This document shows, one piece after another, positions 2,873 through 9,182 of a stretch of 44,255 nt of DNA. The translations under genes were made by a program, and so were the position numbers. Position 1 is the stretch's first letter; each line of letters starts with the position of its first letter. Source of the DNA: Geobacter sp. (GTDB lineage: Bacteria > Desulfobacterota > Desulfuromonadia > Geobacterales > DSM-12255). The stretch lies in assembly GCA_009886125.1 (NCBI GenBank), contig VFJK01000026.1:1-44255 (forward strand), given 5' to 3'. The notes under the pieces were generated by a model. The model made no database searches. It saw only the letters and a list, made by a program, of their open reading frames with translations, and was not told the DNA's origin.

Positions 2873-3001
2873 ATCTGTTCCAGATGCCTTCAGGCCTTCA
2901 AAAGTCCTGTTGACGGGATTTTATCGATACTAAAAACGTGCTGCATAATAGCAACCCCCTGAATTTGCTGTCAAGGCGAAAGCTACTTTTGCGACCCTCG
3001 T

Positions 3002-4201
3002 TCACAGGCTTTTCCCCTTGGGATCAAAATCAGGTATGGCTCGCAGCATGAACTGATCGAATAATGGCACAGTAAAAGCCATATCTCCGTAAGAGGGGCT
3101 GTAAATCATCCCTTTTTTGATAAGGCTGGCCCTTACCGGGCCAAGTGTTGTGATTTTCACTCCGAGGAAATCCGCTATATCAGCGGTACGATAAGGAGCG
3201 CCTCCCAACTCGGCCATCGCTCGCAAATACATCTTCTCGCGTGGGGTAAGACGATTAAAGCGAACCCTGAAAAAGTTTTCATCAAGACGGCTTTCAACCA
3301 GAGCAGTTGCTTCCTGAATGGTCTGAAGAGTAATGGGGGAGGCTGTTGCATGATTCCATGATTGATATCCCCACTCTTGCAGGAAGTAAGGATATCCTTG
3401 AGTAAGTCTGTAAATTTCTGTAATCGCTGAATCATCGAACACTTCTCCAGCCGCTTTTACCGGGTCTTTAAGAGCTTTAGCTGCTTCCGGTTCTGCCAGA
3501 GGTCCGATATTTGGGAAGCTGAAAAGGCGCTCGGCGTATGACTTTGAATCACCAGCCAACCCCGGCAGAATCGGCAAACCTGCACCAATTAAGAGCAAGG
3601 GCAACTGACGCTGTTGCATTTTGTGCATTGCCATTATCAGGGCGCTCAATTCAGATGAATTCAGGTACTGAATTTCGTCGATAAGAATAGCTATAGCAGT
3701 TTTGCGCTCTTCTGCGGCCTCGGCTACTGCGACAAAGAGATTTGGAAGATCTATCTCCAGATCTCCGCTGTCAGCGGCGCCTTTTTCCGGATCAGTGTCC
3801 AGTCCGAACTCGACATCACCTACTGTTATCTTTATTCCACTGATGAAGCTTTTGAGCACTGCCAGCCCGCGACGAGCCTTGTCACCAGCACCAACAATTC
3901 TGTCGAGATCAAAGAGAAGGCGGCGCAAGTGCGGCACAAGCAGCAAAGAAAGCGACTTGTCCTCATGGGCCTCCACAAGGATGGTGCGATAGCCGTCAGC
4001 AATCGCCATTCGCTCCATTTCGTTGAGCAGCACCGTCTTGCCGACACCGCGCAGACCGGTCATCAAAATACTTTTTTCAGGACGCTTCTGGAAAACACGG
4101 CCAAGCAGTACATGAGCCTGCTCCAGAATCCCGTCACGACCTGCCAATTCTGGCGGCGGGGAGCCTGCTCCCGGAGAGAATGGATTCTTGATCTTGTCCA
4201 T
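3002..4201 (-). CDS. AAA ATPase with C-terminal winged-helix domain (Orc1/Cdc6-like architecture)
   Basis: A 399-residue protein. Walker A GLRGVGKT is at residues 49-56 and Walker B AILIDEIQ at about 171-178. The C-terminal part (about 300-385) reads as a winged helix (LTPREKMYLRAMAEL, then IADFLGVK, then LIKKGMIYSP). This arrangement is shared by archaeal Orc1/Cdc6-like proteins and by many bacterial STAND/ATPase proteins of mobile elements and conflict systems. No enzymatic effector domain is visible. The ATG is preceded by AGGTG, and the upstream 200 bp is AT-rich and promoter-like. It stands alone between unrelated operons, so its function is unknown. Confidence 0.8.
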   Translation of the reverse strand: MDKIKNPFSPGAGSPPPELAGRDGILEQAHVLLGRVFQKRPEKSILMTGLRGVGKTVLLNEMERMAIADGYRTILVEAHEDKSLSLLLVPHLRRLLFDLDRIVGAGDKARRGLAVLKSFISGIKITVGDVEFGLDTDPEKGAADSGDLEIDLPNLFVAVAEAAEERKTAIAILIDEIQYLNSSELSALIMAMHKMQQRQLPLLLIGAGLPILPGLAGDSKSYAERLFSFPNIGPLAEPEAAKALKDPVKAAGEVFDDSAITEIYRLTQGYPYFLQEWGYQSWNHATASPITLQTIQEATALVESRLDENFFRVRFNRLTPREKMYLRAMAELGGAPYRTADIADFLGVKITTLGPVRASLIKKGMIYSPSYGDMAFTVPLFDQFMLRAIPDFDPKGKSL

Positions 4202-4415
4202 ATGGTCACCTGCTTATATAAACTTATACATATTTATACGGTATTATTCATGTAAAGTCGAATAACTTTTTATAAGTGGGCATAGGTGCGTTACTGTCGT
4301 TTCGCTAAGGAGGCAGGGTTGTCTGGCGAGAGACTCTTTTTTTTACTGTCACGGTTGACTTGATTAAAATTTATTATAAAATATTTGCAATGGATTATGC
4401 TGAAGGAGGGGTACC

Positions 4416-4658
4416 GTGATAAGCTGTGACTTCAATAACACCTGCCCTTTTCTGAACAAGAAAGTGATCGATCTCCCACTAACCACAACAAAACTGGTAG
4501 AAAACTACTGCACCGGGGAATTTTCCCTATGCACGATATATAAAGTTGCGCAGACCCATGGTATCGACAAGGTCCCCAGATATGTCTCTCCGGATGACAC
4601 ATATGAGCTTTCACACAGGGTTATCGAGTTAGCGCGTCTGGACAAGCTGGGGTGGTGA
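4416..4658 (+). CDS. Small Cys-containing protein of unknown function
   Basis: An 80-residue plus-strand ORF with a GTG start and a strong Shine-Dalgarno (GAAGGAGGGG) six bases upstream, which supports a real gene. Four cysteines lie in the first half (about residues 4, 10, 32 and 39), which could bind metal. There is no signal peptide or membrane segment. Its 3' end overlaps the 3' end of the exonuclease gene on the other strand by 30 bp. I do not recognise the family. Confidence 0.6.
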   Translation: MISCDFNNTCPFLNKKVIDLPLTTTKLVENYCTGEFSLCTIYKVAQTHGIDKVPRYVSPDDTYELSHRVIELARLDKLGW

Positions 4659-5264
4659 CTGCTTCAGCATAAACTCTGCGACCTTCTTCTTCGGAGTCTT
4701 CATCAACTGTTGCATCAATCCAAAGTGAACATCCTGCAGACCGTACCTCTCCTTGATATCCGCTATCATTCGGATCCATAGATGTGCGGTCATCTCTGCA
4801 TCAGCCAGTGCCCTATGATGAATCCCATCTGTTTCAAGGTTCTTGTACTTCACCAACGTACCCAGCTTATGATCAGGAGCTTCCGGATATAATCTTCTGG
4901 ATACCAGCAATGAACAACCGAATTGATTGCTTCTCTTGTGGTTTATCCTCCTGAATTCCGCATCCAGAAATCTTGAATCAAAAGATGCATTATGAGCAAC
5001 AAGAGGGTGGTGGGCCAGGAAGCTCTTCAGCTTTGTCATTACATCCTTGATGCCAGGAGCCGATGTCAACATTCGATTCGTGATCCCGGTGTACTCCTCG
5101 ATGAAACCGGATATTCTCATCTCCGGATTCATGAGGCTTTGAAACCTGTCGACGATCCGGTTGTCAGATATCAGGACGGCACCTACTTCTATAGTTCTGT
5201 CTCCATATCCCGGAGAAAGACCCGTAGTCTCAAAGTCGATTACAATGGTAGAGCAGGTATTCAT
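4629..5264 (-). CDS. DnaQ-like 3'-5' exonuclease (DEDDh)
   Basis: A 211-residue protein of the DNA polymerase III epsilon/exonuclease X superfamily. The ExoI motif IDFETTGL is near residues 9-16, the ExoII region HNASFDSRFL in the middle, and the ExoIII motif HRALADAEMTAHL contains the catalytic His-Asp pair. It is the length of a stand-alone exonuclease domain with a short C-terminal tail, and lacks the polymerase-binding region of full epsilon. It could act in proofreading, repair or RNA trimming; the sequence does not decide. Confidence 0.85.
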   Translation of the reverse strand: MNTCSTIVIDFETTGLSPGYGDRTIEVGAVLISDNRIVDRFQSLMNPEMRISGFIEEYTGITNRMLTSAPGIKDVMTKLKSFLAHHPLVAHNASFDSRFLDAEFRRINHKRSNQFGCSLLVSRRLYPEAPDHKLGTLVKYKNLETDGIHHRALADAEMTAHLWIRMIADIKERYGLQDVHFGLMQQLMKTPKKKVAEFMLKQSPPQLVQTR

Positions 5265-5382
5265 AATAGTGTATGGATCACTCTCTTTTCACCGCCCGAT
5301 ATACTTCGGAACCTTTAGGCAGATGCACTATCCCTATCCTAGTTAATCGGAAACCATTTGTATAGCATTCTGATGGCAAATG

Positions 5383-5413
5383 AAAAGCCCGCCAAATGTT
5401 CGGCGGGCTTCTT
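5383..5413. terminator. Bidirectional rho-independent terminator
   Basis: A 9-bp perfect stem, AAGCCCGCC (5385-5393) and GGCGGGCTT (5402-5410), with an 8-nt loop. T-rich tails lie on both sides, so it can stop transcription from either direction. Confidence 0.8.
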
Positions 5414-5422
5414 TATCGTATC

Positions 5423-5560
5423 TTATTGTCTACCCTTTTCAAGGTCTGTTCCGGCCCTTCCTACCTCCGGAGTGATACAACTGTCATGTATGTAACCTGC
5501 ATGGTGGAGTGTCCTCGATAGTATTCCCTCCTTATGTGCAGATTTAACTGACTTGCTACT
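5423..5560 (-). other. Unexplained expressed-looking segment (short ORF or small RNA candidate)
   Basis: The 453-bp space 5265-5717 has no ordinary gene. Inside it, on the minus strand, a strong Shine-Dalgarno-like AAGGAGG (5527-5533) is followed by a frame open to a TAA at 5423-5425 that ends just before the terminator at 5383-5413. Its conceptual end reads PEVGRAGTDLEKGRQ, and it has no normal start codon at the expected spacing. A second frame gives MQVTYMTVVSLRR from an ATG at about 5501-5503. It could be a small RNA, a decayed gene or a peptide with an unusual start. Confidence 0.3.
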
Positions 5561-5654
5561 GATTCAAATATAACACTCTAAACATGAAAAAACAGGCTGT
5601 TTTTATTATTTTTATTGGCGTATAGTTTTAAAGTTGTCTGATGTTTCAGCGAAG

Positions 5655-5690
5655 AAAAAGGCTTTACGGCAAAATCCGTAAAGCCTTTAT
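5655..5690 (-). terminator. Terminator of the lipoprotein gene
   Basis: A 13-bp perfect stem (5657-5669 with 5676-5688, reading AAAGGCTTTACGG in one arm) and a T-rich tail on the minus strand, 30 bp past the stop codon at 5718. Confidence 0.85.
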
Positions 5691-5717
5691 TTATCTTATG
5701 CATTGAGTGATTAATTA

Positions 5718-6299
5718 TTATCTTGTCTTCTCGCTAATAAAACCAGCTAAATTGTAAATAGTGTTTGTAACTCTTCCTTCAAATCCCATGCTTCCATAGC
5801 CTGTTCCAGCTCTTGAATCAATAGCTATTGTACTTGAATAGAGCTCATTCCCGGATTGACCATCAATGAAATATACTGTCACATCAAGTGTATCTGAACC
5901 GCCCATGCCTCCAAATAGCACTTGAGCAGCTGAATTTGTTAACTGGTTATAGTTCGCATCTGTAAATTTAATGACTAAACCTTTTGATGCTGGAGTGTTG
6001 CCAATCGCCTTTGCTGTGTTAATTGTTTTATTCGGCATGTAAGCCTTCAGAAATTCCGGCAAGCTTTCAAGATTAATTTTATTCAGTAAAGCTTTCCAGG
6101 CTCCCTTATCCTTGGCTTCATATCCATATTTCTCATACTTCCCTTCACCAAGGTCAATCCATCCAACATTAAGCTCCTGATATTGCTTAAGGTTTCCTGT
6201 AGGAGAGGTCTGTTTAACTACAGTGTAGGTTGAAGCACATCCATTGATAAGTCCCAAAATCATAAGCCCCGCAGCCCATTGTAATATCAATCGAAACAT
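5718..6299 (-). CDS. Predicted lipoprotein of unknown function
   Basis: The start is placed at the ATG at 6299, which has TGGAGG at good spacing; a longer frame would add 17 residues ahead of the signal peptide. The 193-residue product begins with a hydrophobic signal ending in LINGC, a lipobox, so it should be acylated and held in the membrane facing the periplasm. The mature part is mixed alpha/beta with a Gly-rich central stretch (LFGGMGGSDTLDVTVYF) and resembles DUF4410-type small lipoproteins. Single-gene unit with its own terminator. Confidence 0.75.
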   Translation of the reverse strand: MFRLILQWAAGLMILGLINGCASTYTVVKQTSPTGNLKQYQELNVGWIDLGEGKYEKYGYEAKDKGAWKALLNKINLESLPEFLKAYMPNKTINTAKAIGNTPASKGLVIKFTDANYNQLTNSAAQVLFGGMGGSDTLDVTVYFIDGQSGNELYSSTIAIDSRAGTGYGSMGFEGRVTNTIYNLAGFISEKTR

Positions 6300-6459
6300 A
6301 ATTACCTCCAGATTGTATTTTTCATGACTTGAAAACAGTCCAATTAGCATACCTCCATTAACCTAAACTTCAAGACTTCTAATCAAAAATATGCCATCGT
6401 TTGAGCAGCCTTAAGAGCATATCGCTGCTTTCTGATATGTAAGGATAATATTAGATAAC

Positions 6460-6491
6460 AAAAAAGCCATATCTATCAAGTAGATATGGCT
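6460..6491 (-). terminator. Original terminator of the tRNA operon, now displaced
   Basis: An 11-bp perfect stem, AGCCATATCTA (6465-6475) and TAGATATGGCT (6481-6491), followed on the minus strand by a T run. It sits just beyond the second copy of the tRNA-Leu 3' half, where the terminator of the tRNA-Pro/Arg/Leu unit would lie if the 6505-8245 insertion were removed. Confidence 0.75.
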
Positions 6492-6504
6492 AAGTACAAA
6501 TAAT

Positions 6505-6557
6505 TGGTGCGAGAGAGGAGACTTGAACTCCTATACCTTTCGGTGCCAGATCCTAAG
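6505..6557 (-). repeat. Distal att copy: duplicated 3' half of tRNA-Leu
   Basis: A 53-bp perfect copy of 8246-8298, at an exact offset of 1741 bp, running from the anticodon loop to the encoded CCA. The match stops at 6558/8299 inside the anticodon loop. It lacks the 5' half, so it is not a functional tRNA. Confidence 0.93.
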
Positions 6558-6606
6558 ACTGTGACCCTCAACGCTAATTTCGTCAATACTTTAACATAGT
6601 TATGAG

Positions 6607-7020
6607 CTACGACAAAAAGCATGGCGAAGATTTGGCGAAAGTATTTAATCCAACACACCTTTTACTACAAAATGGACCAGATTTTCCTTGACGCTGATTA
6701 TGCCTTAAATGCCTTGCAACTTTCAATGATTTATTACCGCAATAAAGACAAGTTATTTCAACCAACTCCGACCTTTTTACATGACGTTTAACATGCTCAG
6801 ACCTGCCTAGAACCCTAAAATTCTCTATTCTATTATCGGTAAAATCTCCGTTTATATGGTCAACTGTTTCATCGGGTAGCAACTTACACCCAAGATGTTT
6901 TTCCATTAAATATTTAGGCCAGGACATAAAACGGCTTTTACCGTTTTCTATAATTTGTATTCTACTGCGACCGTCTTTGCAGACATACGGTCCATATACT
7001 TTCTCCATTTTGATTAACAC
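6607..7020 (-). CDS. HNH endonuclease with C-terminal zinc-finger-like motif
   Basis: A 137-residue protein with an HNH_3-type core: ETVDHINGDFTDNRIENFRVL, followed by SEHVKRH, in the middle of the protein. A C-terminal pair CLYCGN and FCSKRC would form a zinc-binding site. Such proteins are typical of homing endonucleases and phage or mobile-element nucleases. I use the GTG at 7020, preceded by AGGG; an internal ATG at 7008 is possible. It follows the replication-relaxation gene by 20 bp, so the two are likely co-transcribed. Confidence 0.75.
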   Translation of the reverse strand: MLIKMEKVYGPYVCKDGRSRIQIIENGKSRFMSWPKYLMEKHLGCKLLPDETVDHINGDFTDNRIENFRVLGRSEHVKRHVKRSELVEITCLYCGNKSLKVARHLRHNQRQGKSGPFCSKRCVGLNTFAKSSPCFLS

Positions 7021-7040
7021 AAAGCCCTGAAACCTACTGC

Positions 7041-7847
7041 TTAAATAAGCGACACTTTATTGCCCTTGGGGGTGACCCAAATTGGTTCTGCAAGGCGGGT
7101 GAATTGGTGGTAGGGGAGAAAGCGGAATTTGTAATCTTCTATGTATTGGCCGAAGGCAGTTAAAAGGAAAAAATCATTTTCAACAGACTGTATTTCATTA
7201 TTTATTTTATGGTCTTCATATTCAATTGGCCTGTTAAAAACCCTGTACCATTCATTCGTAAAGACATATAAAAATTTTGTGTATTTTGACAAATCAAAAT
7301 CATCAAAGTCTGTCATTTTATGGTTTTTAGCGAGCTTGTCTAAATATATCGACTTCGGTGATCGGCTCCGTTCAAATTCAATAATGTAATTATAGACCTT
7401 CCCCTTGCTGTCTTTCAAATGCGCGATTGCGTCCGGCTTATAATTATAGCCTGGGAATTTCAGCACTCTGTCATATTCAAACGTAACCGAATAATCCGGA
7501 AAGCACTTAATCAAGGAAATACAAATATCAATCAAACCGAACTGGTGATGCAGATTAGTTAAGGCTATGCCGTCCTTATATTTATATTTTATGTTTGCTA
7601 CCTTATAGCCTTTGGCGGTTGGGACAAAGAAGGTGTTATATCTGTATTGACGGCCAATCGTGGGGTAAATTTGCAGAGGCGTTATGAGCTCTGCTTTTAC
7701 AAGTCGGTTGAATATCCTGGTGGGCCACTGTAATGATTTATTGAGGTCTCCGGCGTTGGTAACTGTCCACGGCTGAAAATGATAAACAGTAGCCATTCCA
7801 ACTCTGGCTATTATGTTTAGGGTTTCGAGCTCTTTATTGCCTCTCAT
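7041..7847 (-). CDS. Replication-relaxation family protein (plasmid/ICE type)
   Basis: A 268-residue protein. The N-terminal half reads as a winged helix (about residues 5-95). The second half has KPDAIAHL followed by YIIEFERSRS and a Lys-rich helix (YLDKLAKNHK), the pattern of the Replic_Relax family, whose members sit on plasmids and integrative elements and were linked to replication or DNA relaxation at transfer origins. The PD...ExE spacing also recalls the PD-(D/E)xK nuclease fold, which I only infer. The start has a weak ribosome site, and a repeat-rich region lies directly upstream, as expected for a Rep-type gene beside its origin. Confidence 0.65.
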   Translation of the reverse strand: MRGNKELETLNIIARVGMATVYHFQPWTVTNAGDLNKSLQWPTRIFNRLVKAELITPLQIYPTIGRQYRYNTFFVPTAKGYKVANIKYKYKDGIALTNLHHQFGLIDICISLIKCFPDYSVTFEYDRVLKFPGYNYKPDAIAHLKDSKGKVYNYIIEFERSRSPKSIYLDKLAKNHKMTDFDDFDLSKYTKFLYVFTNEWYRVFNRPIEYEDHKINNEIQSVENDFFLLTAFGQYIEDYKFRFLPYHQFTRLAEPIWVTPKGNKVSLI

Positions 7848-7855
7848 ATATTTAT

Positions 7856-8006
7856 ATGCGCAAATCCGTCCTGGCGTAGCAAAGGACAGCTCGGGGCTTG
7901 ATTACGTGTTGTCGTTTTATAGCAACCGTTCAAGTATCGAGCTGTCCTTTGTGGAGGGTTCATCCCCAAAGGACGTGATTTTGCGCACTATGTTTAATTT
8001 TGCGCA
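7856..8006. repeat. Inverted and direct repeats upstream of the replication-relaxation gene (origin or operator candidate)
   Basis: A perfect 13-bp inverted repeat, AAAGGACAGCTCG (7881-7893) and its complement (7938-7950), flanks a 44-bp spacer. AAAGGAC recurs at 7968-7974. ATTTTGCGCA occurs twice in direct orientation at 7978-7987 and 7997-8006 (19 bp apart), and a near copy in the opposite orientation lies at 7856-7865. The remaining space up to the tRNA (8007-8245) holds only a terminator. Layout of this kind is seen at iteron or rolling-circle origins and at transfer origins. Confidence 0.6.
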
Positions 8007-8163
8007 ACTCTAGTCAAAATTTTATCGAGCGTAGCGAGCGAAGGGGTGATTTTGGCTACAACGGATTGGTAAAAATGGGGATATCTTATTTTTATTATAA
8101 CATATACGAAAATCCGGTGAAAGTCTGGTGAAAGAATATCGTTGAAAGGTGTCTTTTGGTAAG

Positions 8164-8200
8164 AAAAAAGGGGAATATCGTCTAAGCGATTTCCCCTTTT
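8164..8200 (-). terminator. Terminator brought in by the element, downstream of tRNA-Leu
   Basis: The stem AAAAGGGGAA (8166-8175) with TTCCCCTTTT (8191-8200) and an inner ATCG/CGAT pair is followed by T6 on the minus strand. It lies 46 bp past the tRNA 3' end and can replace the displaced terminator at 6460-6491. Confidence 0.8.
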
Positions 8201-8245
8201 AATATTTCAATTTATCGTGCTTTAAGGCAGTTATAAGCTTATTTA

Positions 8246-8330
8246 TGGTGCGAGAGAGGAGACTTGAACTCCTATACCTTTCGGTGCCAGATCCTAAGTC
8301 TGGTGCGTCTGCCAATTCCGCCACTCTCGC
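8246..8330 (-). tRNA. tRNA-Leu (UAG)
   Basis: An 85-nt class II tRNA with an encoded CCA (8246-8248). The acceptor GCGAGAG pairs with its 3' strand, the anticodon loop is CTTAGGA (anticodon TAG) between CCAGA and TCTGG, a long variable arm follows, and the T loop is TTCAAGT. Its 3' half is the integration site of the adjacent element and remains intact. Confidence 0.95.
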
Positions 8331-8366
8331 AAATCTGAAAGGTAAGGTTTATCCCTGAATGGTTTC

Positions 8367-8443
8367 TGGCGCGCCCGGTACGACTCGAACGTACGACCTA
8401 CGGCTTAGAAGGCCGTTGCTCTATCCAGCTGAGCTACGGGCGC
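8367..8443 (-). tRNA. tRNA-Arg (UCU)
   Basis: A 77-nt tRNA with encoded CCA. The acceptor GCGCCCG pairs with CGGGCGC. The anticodon loop CTTCTAA gives anticodon TCT between ACGGC and GCCGT, and the T loop is TTCGAGT. Confidence 0.95.
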
Positions 8444-8455
8444 TTAAGAAAAAAA

Positions 8456-8532
8456 TGGTCGGGGAGACAAGATTCGAACTTGCGACCCCCTGCTCCCAAG
8501 GCAGGTGCGCTGCCAGACTGCGCTACTCCCCG
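8456..8532 (-). tRNA. tRNA-Pro (UGG)
   Basis: A 77-nt tRNA with encoded CCA. The acceptor CGGGGAG pairs with CTCCCCG. The anticodon loop CTTGGGA gives anticodon TGG between CCTGC and GCAGG. First tRNA of a Pro-Arg-Leu run that follows rdgB by about 40 bp. Confidence 0.95.
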
Positions 8533-8570
8533 ACGAAAGAAAGATTTATATCACATCTTGTTATTTCAAA

Positions 8571-9182
8571 TCAAGCTTTTGATTGCATATAGCCGTTTTT
8601 TGCCAGATAAAGCCTTAAAGCGGCTGCCGCCCTCCCCCGGTGACTGATCCTGTTCTTGATCTCCAAAGGCAGTTCAGCAAGCGTTTTCCCGTATTCCGGG
8701 ACCATAAAAAGAGGATCATAGCCGAACCCGCCGCTCCCTGAAGGTTTCTCAAGAATCAGACCTTTCAGCTCTCCTTCAAAAGTAACGTTGAACCCTTCAG
8801 GTGTGCAAAAAGCTATCGCGCAACGAAAAGCCGCCAAACGCCTGTTCTTGGTAAACGATGTCAGTTCCTGAAGAAGCTTCAGATTATTGGCTTCATCATC
8901 AGCCCCTTCACCTGCATAGCGGGCAGAGAAGACCCCGGGCTTTCCGTCAAGCGCCTCGACACAGAGTCCGGAATCATCAGCTATGGTCGGCAACCCTGAA
9001 TACCTCGATGCAGCAGCGGCTTTTATAAGTGCATTCTCGCTAAACGTACAGCCATCTTCAACCGGAGGCAGCAGATCAGGGAAATCTTTCAGAGAGTACA
9101 GCTGTATCGCCTCTTCTGAAAAGAGTGCTGCAAATTCCCTCACTTTCCCTGCATTGCCTGTCGCGATCAATAGCTTCTTCAT
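8571..9182 (-). CDS. rdgB: RdgB/HAM1 non-canonical purine NTP pyrophosphatase
   Basis: A 203-residue cytoplasmic enzyme that hydrolyses XTP, ITP and dITP to monophosphates. The N-terminus [14 protein letters not shown] is the family signature, followed by [24 protein letters not shown] (two catalytic Asp in the first part) and [11 protein letters not shown] and SHRGRA near the C-terminus. The ATG overlaps the stop of rph by four bases, a common pairing. Confidence 0.95.

Follow-up and report, generated by a model that had tools for sequence, protein, structure and literature searches.

In a Geobacter sp. genome the tRNA-Leu(UAG) gene is occupied by a small insertion that carries two genes and no recognisable recombinase, bounded by a perfect duplication of part of the tRNA. 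That this is a site-specific insertion made by a tyrosine integrase is well supported; the fuller reading, a minimal non-autonomous element inserted by a tRNA-targeting tyrosine integrase acting in trans, we hold at slightly better than even odds (about 0.55). Islands of this kind are easily dismissed as debris. The shared feature here, however, is a set of end sequences common to integrase-bearing elements at other tRNA genes, which suggests that the DNA was inserted by the enzyme of another element, or else that it has lost an integrase of its own. Because the ends are shared in this way, a 1.7-kb substrate now allows one to test for integration in trans at tRNA sites. A long hairpin provides a second lead, toward a structured RNA or single-stranded DNA that is known to date from two genomes of the order, with compensatory changes between them.

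The insertion and its empty site

The window, by which we mean the whole stretch of 44,255 nucleotides analysed (contig VFJK01000026.1 of assembly GCA_009886125.1), carries tRNA-Leu(UAG), tRNA-Arg and tRNA-Pro on its minus strand, and these three tRNAs alone reach the gathering threshold when positions 6400–8600 are compared with known RNA families. An earlier note on this DNA had proposed a 1741-bp AT-rich insertion in tRNA-Leu between perfect 53-bp repeats, and the proposal holds on the evidence of the repeat, the base composition and the uninterrupted site in two relatives. The two att copies agree over 53 bp without a mismatch, or over 57 bp if one is allowed, at a spacing of 1741 bp, and the element has a G+C content of 38.6% against 49.4% for the window. 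The stranded tRNA terminator that the note had described is also present (Table 1), standing behind the tRNA copy and not behind the working tRNA. Element DNA finds one match (E ≤ 0.001) in its own 192-contig assembly, the window holds no third copy of the 53-bp core, and a 21-nt stretch of the core at up to three mismatches finds no further copy assembly-wide; plasmid and phage collections give no match to the element DNA. The perfect core and the intact ends argue for a recent event.

Table 1. Positions and strands of the features discussed, in window coordinates.
Feature	Position	Strand	Remarks
Original tRNA terminator, stranded by the insertion	6465–6491	−	found by terminator scan
attL, perfect 53-bp tRNA copy	6505–6557	−	approximately anticodon loop to 3' end
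Integrated element body	6558–8245		1688 bp; with one core, 1741 bp
Weaker repeat near left core	6589–6608	+	16/20 like 8220–8239 near right core
HNH endonuclease	6607–7020	−	137 aa; matches HNH_3 (Pfam)
Left tandem 11-bp repeats	6622–6643	+	candidate integrase arm-type sites
Orphan protein	7041–7847	−	268 aa
Conserved hairpin	7850–7992	−	one long hairpin, about 7855–7990; z −10.1 (RNA MFE)
Promoter-like site	8094–8121	−	TTCACC-16-TATAAT, 10/12, TG before −10; consensus match only
Right tandem 11-bp repeats	8115–8136	+	candidate arm-type sites
Element-borne terminator-like hairpin, at present located behind the tRNA	8164–8199	−	by eye; unlisted by terminator scan
Intact tRNA-Leu(UAG)	8246–8330	−	8246–8298 within it = attR, 53-bp core

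The empty site is seen in two relatives. In a genome of the same genus (G002), terminator and tRNA-Leu lie together with the site uninterrupted, the equivalent terminator following directly behind the tRNA; its sequence (L045 13519–13629) aligns with window 6453–6561 at 87% over 111 columns, and two pieces of the left flank (within 5380–5635) are collinear there. In a second relative (G005), an empty tRNA-Leu lies between genes from the two flanks, with amino-acid identities of 76–92% for the four on the left and 60–89% for the six on the right. Given these empty sites, the insertion is genuine and is no artefact of assembly across a chance repeat. Matches resembling tRNA-Leu were also found in G004, G007, G008 and G011.

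Two observations concern the surroundings of the gene. The tRNA-Leu(tag) of G002 (L045 13519–14756, contig G002:C61) stands beside genes that we name by reading as glyQ- and glyS-like, and not beside tRNA-Arg and tRNA-Pro; this different neighbourhood is a rearrangement within the genus. In the window, 3.6 kb (2873–6459) lie between a cobO-like gene (2342–2872, named by reading) and tRNA-Leu. This stretch is absent from G005 and G009, where the cobO-like gene adjoins tRNA-Leu, and is perhaps an older insertion. It contains an AAA_16 ATPase gene (3002–4201) whose product is 73% identical to that of a gene in G088 lying right behind tRNA-Leu(taa) and its element.

Repeats at both ends and their company elsewhere

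The earlier note had also described a repeat-rich region within the element. What stands there is one long hairpin (about 7855–7990), and it is instead at both ends that tandem 11-bp repeats occur. The left (GGCGAAGATTTGGCGAAAG, 6623–6641) and right copies (GGTGAAAGTCTGGTGAAAG, 8116–8134) share the same orientation and match a degenerate pattern with no mismatch; two such matches were reached in none of 100 shuffles of the window, the pattern itself having been drawn in part from the very copies tested. Nearer the cores lies a weaker repeat, whose degree of match is attained by 3 of 200 shuffles.

A 25-letter version of the pattern, at up to two mismatches, occurs in 4 of the 141 genomes of the order, the element's own included, and at four places outside the window: in G516, at G088:C75, at G063:C1 and at G088:C72. 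In G516 the repeats lie 34–55 bp from tRNA-Ser(cga), on the side of an integrase gene whose end they overlap, and 21 bp of the window (8116–8136) are identical to this site; the integrase, of 439 aa, has both Phage_integrase and Arm-DNA-bind_2 domains. G088:C75 (L192 1004–3985) holds an element of 2.9 kb that has 39 bp from the 5' part of tRNA-Leu(taa) at each end. It too has the 11-bp repeats at both ends, and it carries genes for a 167-aa integrase consisting of the catalytic domain only, an HTH protein, a Peptidase_M78 protein and a piece of a transposase. At G063:C1 (L205 7103–7168) there are six tandem 11-bp repeats (TGGTGAAAGTT), near a gene that reads as DnaA-like; neither there nor at G088:C72 did we find a tRNA, a piece of one, or an integrase. 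Two of the four places thus support an arm-site reading, by virtue of the integrase and tRNA found with them, and the other two do not speak for it. A degenerate pair of the repeats (two mismatches), beyond the reach of the 25-letter search, belongs to the end module of an element at tRNA-Arg in G058. The repeats run antisense to the tRNA in the window, in G516, at G088:C75, in G058 and at an integrase remnant beside tRNA-Gly in the element's own genome. From these sequence likenesses we infer that the 11-bp repeats are arm-type integrase sites.

The earlier note had proposed looking elsewhere in the genome for a tyrosine recombinase with this att. Ten Phage_integrase matches were found in the assembly; the repeat pattern, at up to two mismatches, lies near none of them and occurs nowhere in the genome outside the window, and none of the ten is an intact integrase with these repeats. 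As a separate observation, the genome does hold, at tRNA-Gly(gcc) (L058 2374–2864, contig G000:C48), the C-terminal remnant of a tyrosine integrase of the G516 type (45% over 113 aa), and visual inspection shows a related repeat over its end, ATGCGAAAGTTC-ATGCGAAAGCCG, whose period is 12 bp and to which the pattern gives no match at two mismatches.

The right end of the element carries further signals. The −35 box of a promoter-like site falls within the right repeats, so that a factor binding the repeats could also control the operon; seven sites of this kind were found in the region, where shuffles lead one to expect 5.3. The terminator-like hairpin that the element brought to its present place behind the tRNA matches the end of the G088:C75 element at 97% over 35 bp. 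In a search with the whole element DNA, 7 of the 141 order genomes respond at E up to 0.01, the element's own included; the other six are G058, G088, G507, G034, G046 and G036, of which G058 and G088 were examined in detail. The match in G034 is a weak one of 48 bp to the right end of the element, with no tRNA within the 7 kb read.

Genes and hairpin of the element

The element's two genes run in the same direction as the tRNA. For the first, the earlier note's naming as an HNH endonuclease stands: besides its Pfam match, the protein matches 97 phage records, at 45.6% in the best of them (Salmonella phage PVPSE1), and a viral contig at 54%, and its likeness is to the free-standing HNH endonucleases of phages. 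The best phage matches cover residues 2–124; the final 13 codons overlap the left 11-bp repeats, and this overlap may have been left by a deletion.

The second gene, which the note had called replication-relaxation-like, does not sustain that name in Pfam, in NCBIfam or in profile tests. To the eye, the 268-aa protein begins like a winged helix and shows residues of a PD...ExE-like kind that recall Replic_Relax (PF13814), a family equated with the MOBC relaxases (PMC5357655). It has no Pfam match at E up to 10 and no NCBIfam match, and its one weak PHROG match, to "replication initiation by nicking", has an E of 0.022. No homologue was found in 96 relatives besides its own genome, in 394 other genomes of the phylum (in part the same genomes as the 96), or in GTDB contigs, viral contigs, plasmids and phages. 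Membership of PF13814 was tried and rejected: a profile built from five of six phylum proteins (L225 left out as a near copy of L216; L214 cut at 330 residues, its end possibly misread) ranks the protein 97th of 198 rows, at or below the level of shuffles and unrelated proteins; its hhalign probability is 0.1, where unrelated controls (60 of 219 collected ORFs) reach 2.7. Across 395 phylum genomes the PF13814 search returns 11 at E up to 0.01, with five genomes (six places) over the cut-off; the 141 order genomes give no match, as do 14 control genomes, so that this zero shows no absence. CloDF13 was dropped as a MobC yardstick, as its gene table lists none, and a structure model made without an alignment (mean pLDDT 37) was not usable for judging a restriction-endonuclease-like fold.

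That the element encodes no recombinase, as the earlier note had it, was borne out: none was recognised by eye among stop-to-stop frames of at least 25 aa, of five ORFs that lie in the element or overlap it Pfam finds matches for the HNH protein alone, and no remnant of an integrase or excisionase was recognised within the 1688 bp.

Upstream of the 268-aa gene lies the hairpin, with an RNA MFE of −63.1 kcal/mol and, when folded as DNA, a z of −9.1. A single relative turned up, in G058 (DUZS01000031.1), a genome of another family in the same order, where it aligns at 77% over 185 columns (contig positions 144–321), folds alike on its own (z −6.6), and is followed by tRNA-Arg(acg) at 491–567; by reading, promoter-like sequence, repeats, terminator-like hairpin and tRNA are ordered as in the window. 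Of 44 pairs predicted by RNAalifold from the two sequences, 36 are unchanged, one is changed on one side, seven are changed on both sides and none is broken; prediction from the very sequences compared biases this count in the structure's favour. With shuffled partners the double changes average 3.5, and seven are reached in 3 of 500 trials; structures slid by one to three columns yield none or one. A hairpin pattern run over GTDB contigs found three places, G058 and two (L208, L210) that lie inside coding-looking ORFs and were taken as chance, and none in viral contigs; an earlier 14-nt pattern, which hit at least 120 viral stretches, was too short to use. A covariance model matched the element's own genome alone among 395 genomes, G058's presence among which is not established; run directly, G058 scores 163 bits, being one of the model's two sequences. 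The hairpin may be an origin with the 268-aa protein as nickase, or a leader RNA with that protein as regulator.

In G058, too, the other boundary of the insertion can be seen, on another contig: a perfect 45-bp 3' piece of tRNA-Arg lies behind a terminator, with no 11-bp repeats seen at this boundary. There is a further observation to be made on G058, in that the element-internal terminator beside tRNA-Arg (L191 440–500) is almost the same sequence as the terminator behind the displaced piece of tRNA (L213, complement of about 6120–6210), as if the element mimicked the host terminator.

Mechanism, alternatives and known systems

The case for a tyrosine integrase rests on the tRNA core, its boundary at the anticodon loop, the empty site, and the repeats found on integrase-bearing elements. 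With tRNA-targeting integrases the core typically ends at the anticodon loop. An integrase of the Arm-DNA-binding type would join a small circle to the part of tRNA-Leu(UAG) that runs from anticodon loop to 3' end, restoring the tRNA and leaving the 53-bp copy behind. The enzyme would be supplied in trans by a helper element, and hairpin and 268-aa protein may serve replication or transfer of the circle, or control its expression. The earlier note had envisaged such a satellite, and its idea is partly upheld, the repeats being those of integrase-bearing tRNA elements but no intact cognate helper having been found. We favour supply in trans because no remnant is recognised inside, the ends are intact, the core is perfect and the ends are common to other elements. 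It is weakened by the single copy in the assembly, the absence of a homologue of the 268-aa protein from the collections searched, the failure of the ten Phage_integrase matches to yield an intact integrase with the repeats, the two outside repeat places where neither tRNA nor integrase was found, the G034 match with no tRNA in the stretch read, the HNH frame that enters the left repeats, and a hairpin comparison of only two sequences.

Less probable, yet to be taken seriously, is a CIME-like remnant, in which the element's own integrase was later deleted, attL and attR were kept, and the element could move, if at all, only in cis or through an integrase acquired afterwards. Decay of this sort is the usual explanation (PMC5704250, PMC3146451), and it accords with the HNH frame that runs into the left repeats, with the single copy and lack of an intact helper in the assembly, and with the decayed integrase at tRNA-Gly. 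Against it stand the perfect core, the compact layout with both ends intact, and a body of 1688 bp with no recognised piece of integrase or excisionase. Nor was there any sign of the larger, integrase-bearing element at this site that the earlier note had named as the case against its own proposal: tblastn with 13 integrases finds none at the tRNA-Leu(tag) loci read, over stretches of limited length, in 6 of the 12 family relatives.

That a small plasmid with a tRNA-like stretch entered the tRNA gene by homologous recombination across these 53 bp strikes us as improbable. One orphan gene and a hairpin that might be an origin are in keeping with a mini-replicon, but 53 bp offers little length for general recombination, the core stops where tRNA-targeting integrases leave it, both ends bear repeats found on integrase-bearing elements, and the plasmid collection holds no match. 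Movement by the HNH enzyme through homing-type repair, raised in the earlier note, we set aside almost entirely. The protein is indeed of the free-standing phage type, but homing copies a gene into the cognate allele and creates no duplication of a tRNA half, and so it explains neither that duplication nor the intact tRNA and integrase-type ends. The trans-acting integrase remains our preferred reading, and it can be extended, quite speculatively and in our view doubtfully, to a lineage of miniature recombinase-less tRNA elements in the order that share a portable end module of terminator, 11-bp arm repeats overlapping a promoter, and long covarying hairpin. Resident Arm-DNA-binding integrases would move such elements at several different tRNA genes, and the hairpin, with an unrecognised nicking-type protein, would let the excised circle replicate or transfer, making of each a doubly dependent hitcher of under 2 kb.

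Four kinds of known system come nearest to this element. CIMEs are integrase-less islands with both att sites kept (PMC5704250), and the likeness is plain, as the element keeps attL and attR at a tRNA site and has no integration or conjugation genes. It differs in its 1.74 kb and two genes, in that no tandem ICE or IME neighbour was seen that could mobilise it in cis, in showing no sign of descent from either, and in end sequences common to elements at other tRNA genes; an IME, on the other hand, would encode its own excision and integration, which this element does not. In Dehalococcoides, 15 islands at ssrA without an integration module have been suggested to be CIMEs (PMC3146451). These share with the element the 3' end of an RNA gene, a direct repeat and the missing module, but they lie among tandem islands with serine recombinases, whereas the element is solitary, with repeats that match ones next to a tyrosine integrase. 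MITEs and CALINs are hitchers mobilised in trans by the recombinase of another element (PMC11389934), and the present element would likewise depend on a foreign recombinase through shared end or site sequences; unlike them, it targets a tRNA gene, has ends resembling arm-type repeats, and carries coding genes and a conserved hairpin. With IMEs bearing a MOBC (PF13814) relaxase (PMC5357655) it shares a possible nuclease-like protein beside a structured non-coding region, but it has no integrase, and its 268-aa protein matches neither PF13814 nor the five-member phylum profile. A literature search of titles and abstract openings, which is no proof of absence, turned up no description of an element of the same build. 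What sets the element apart from the known kinds is its size, its solitary position and an end module, parts of which recur at different tRNA genes.
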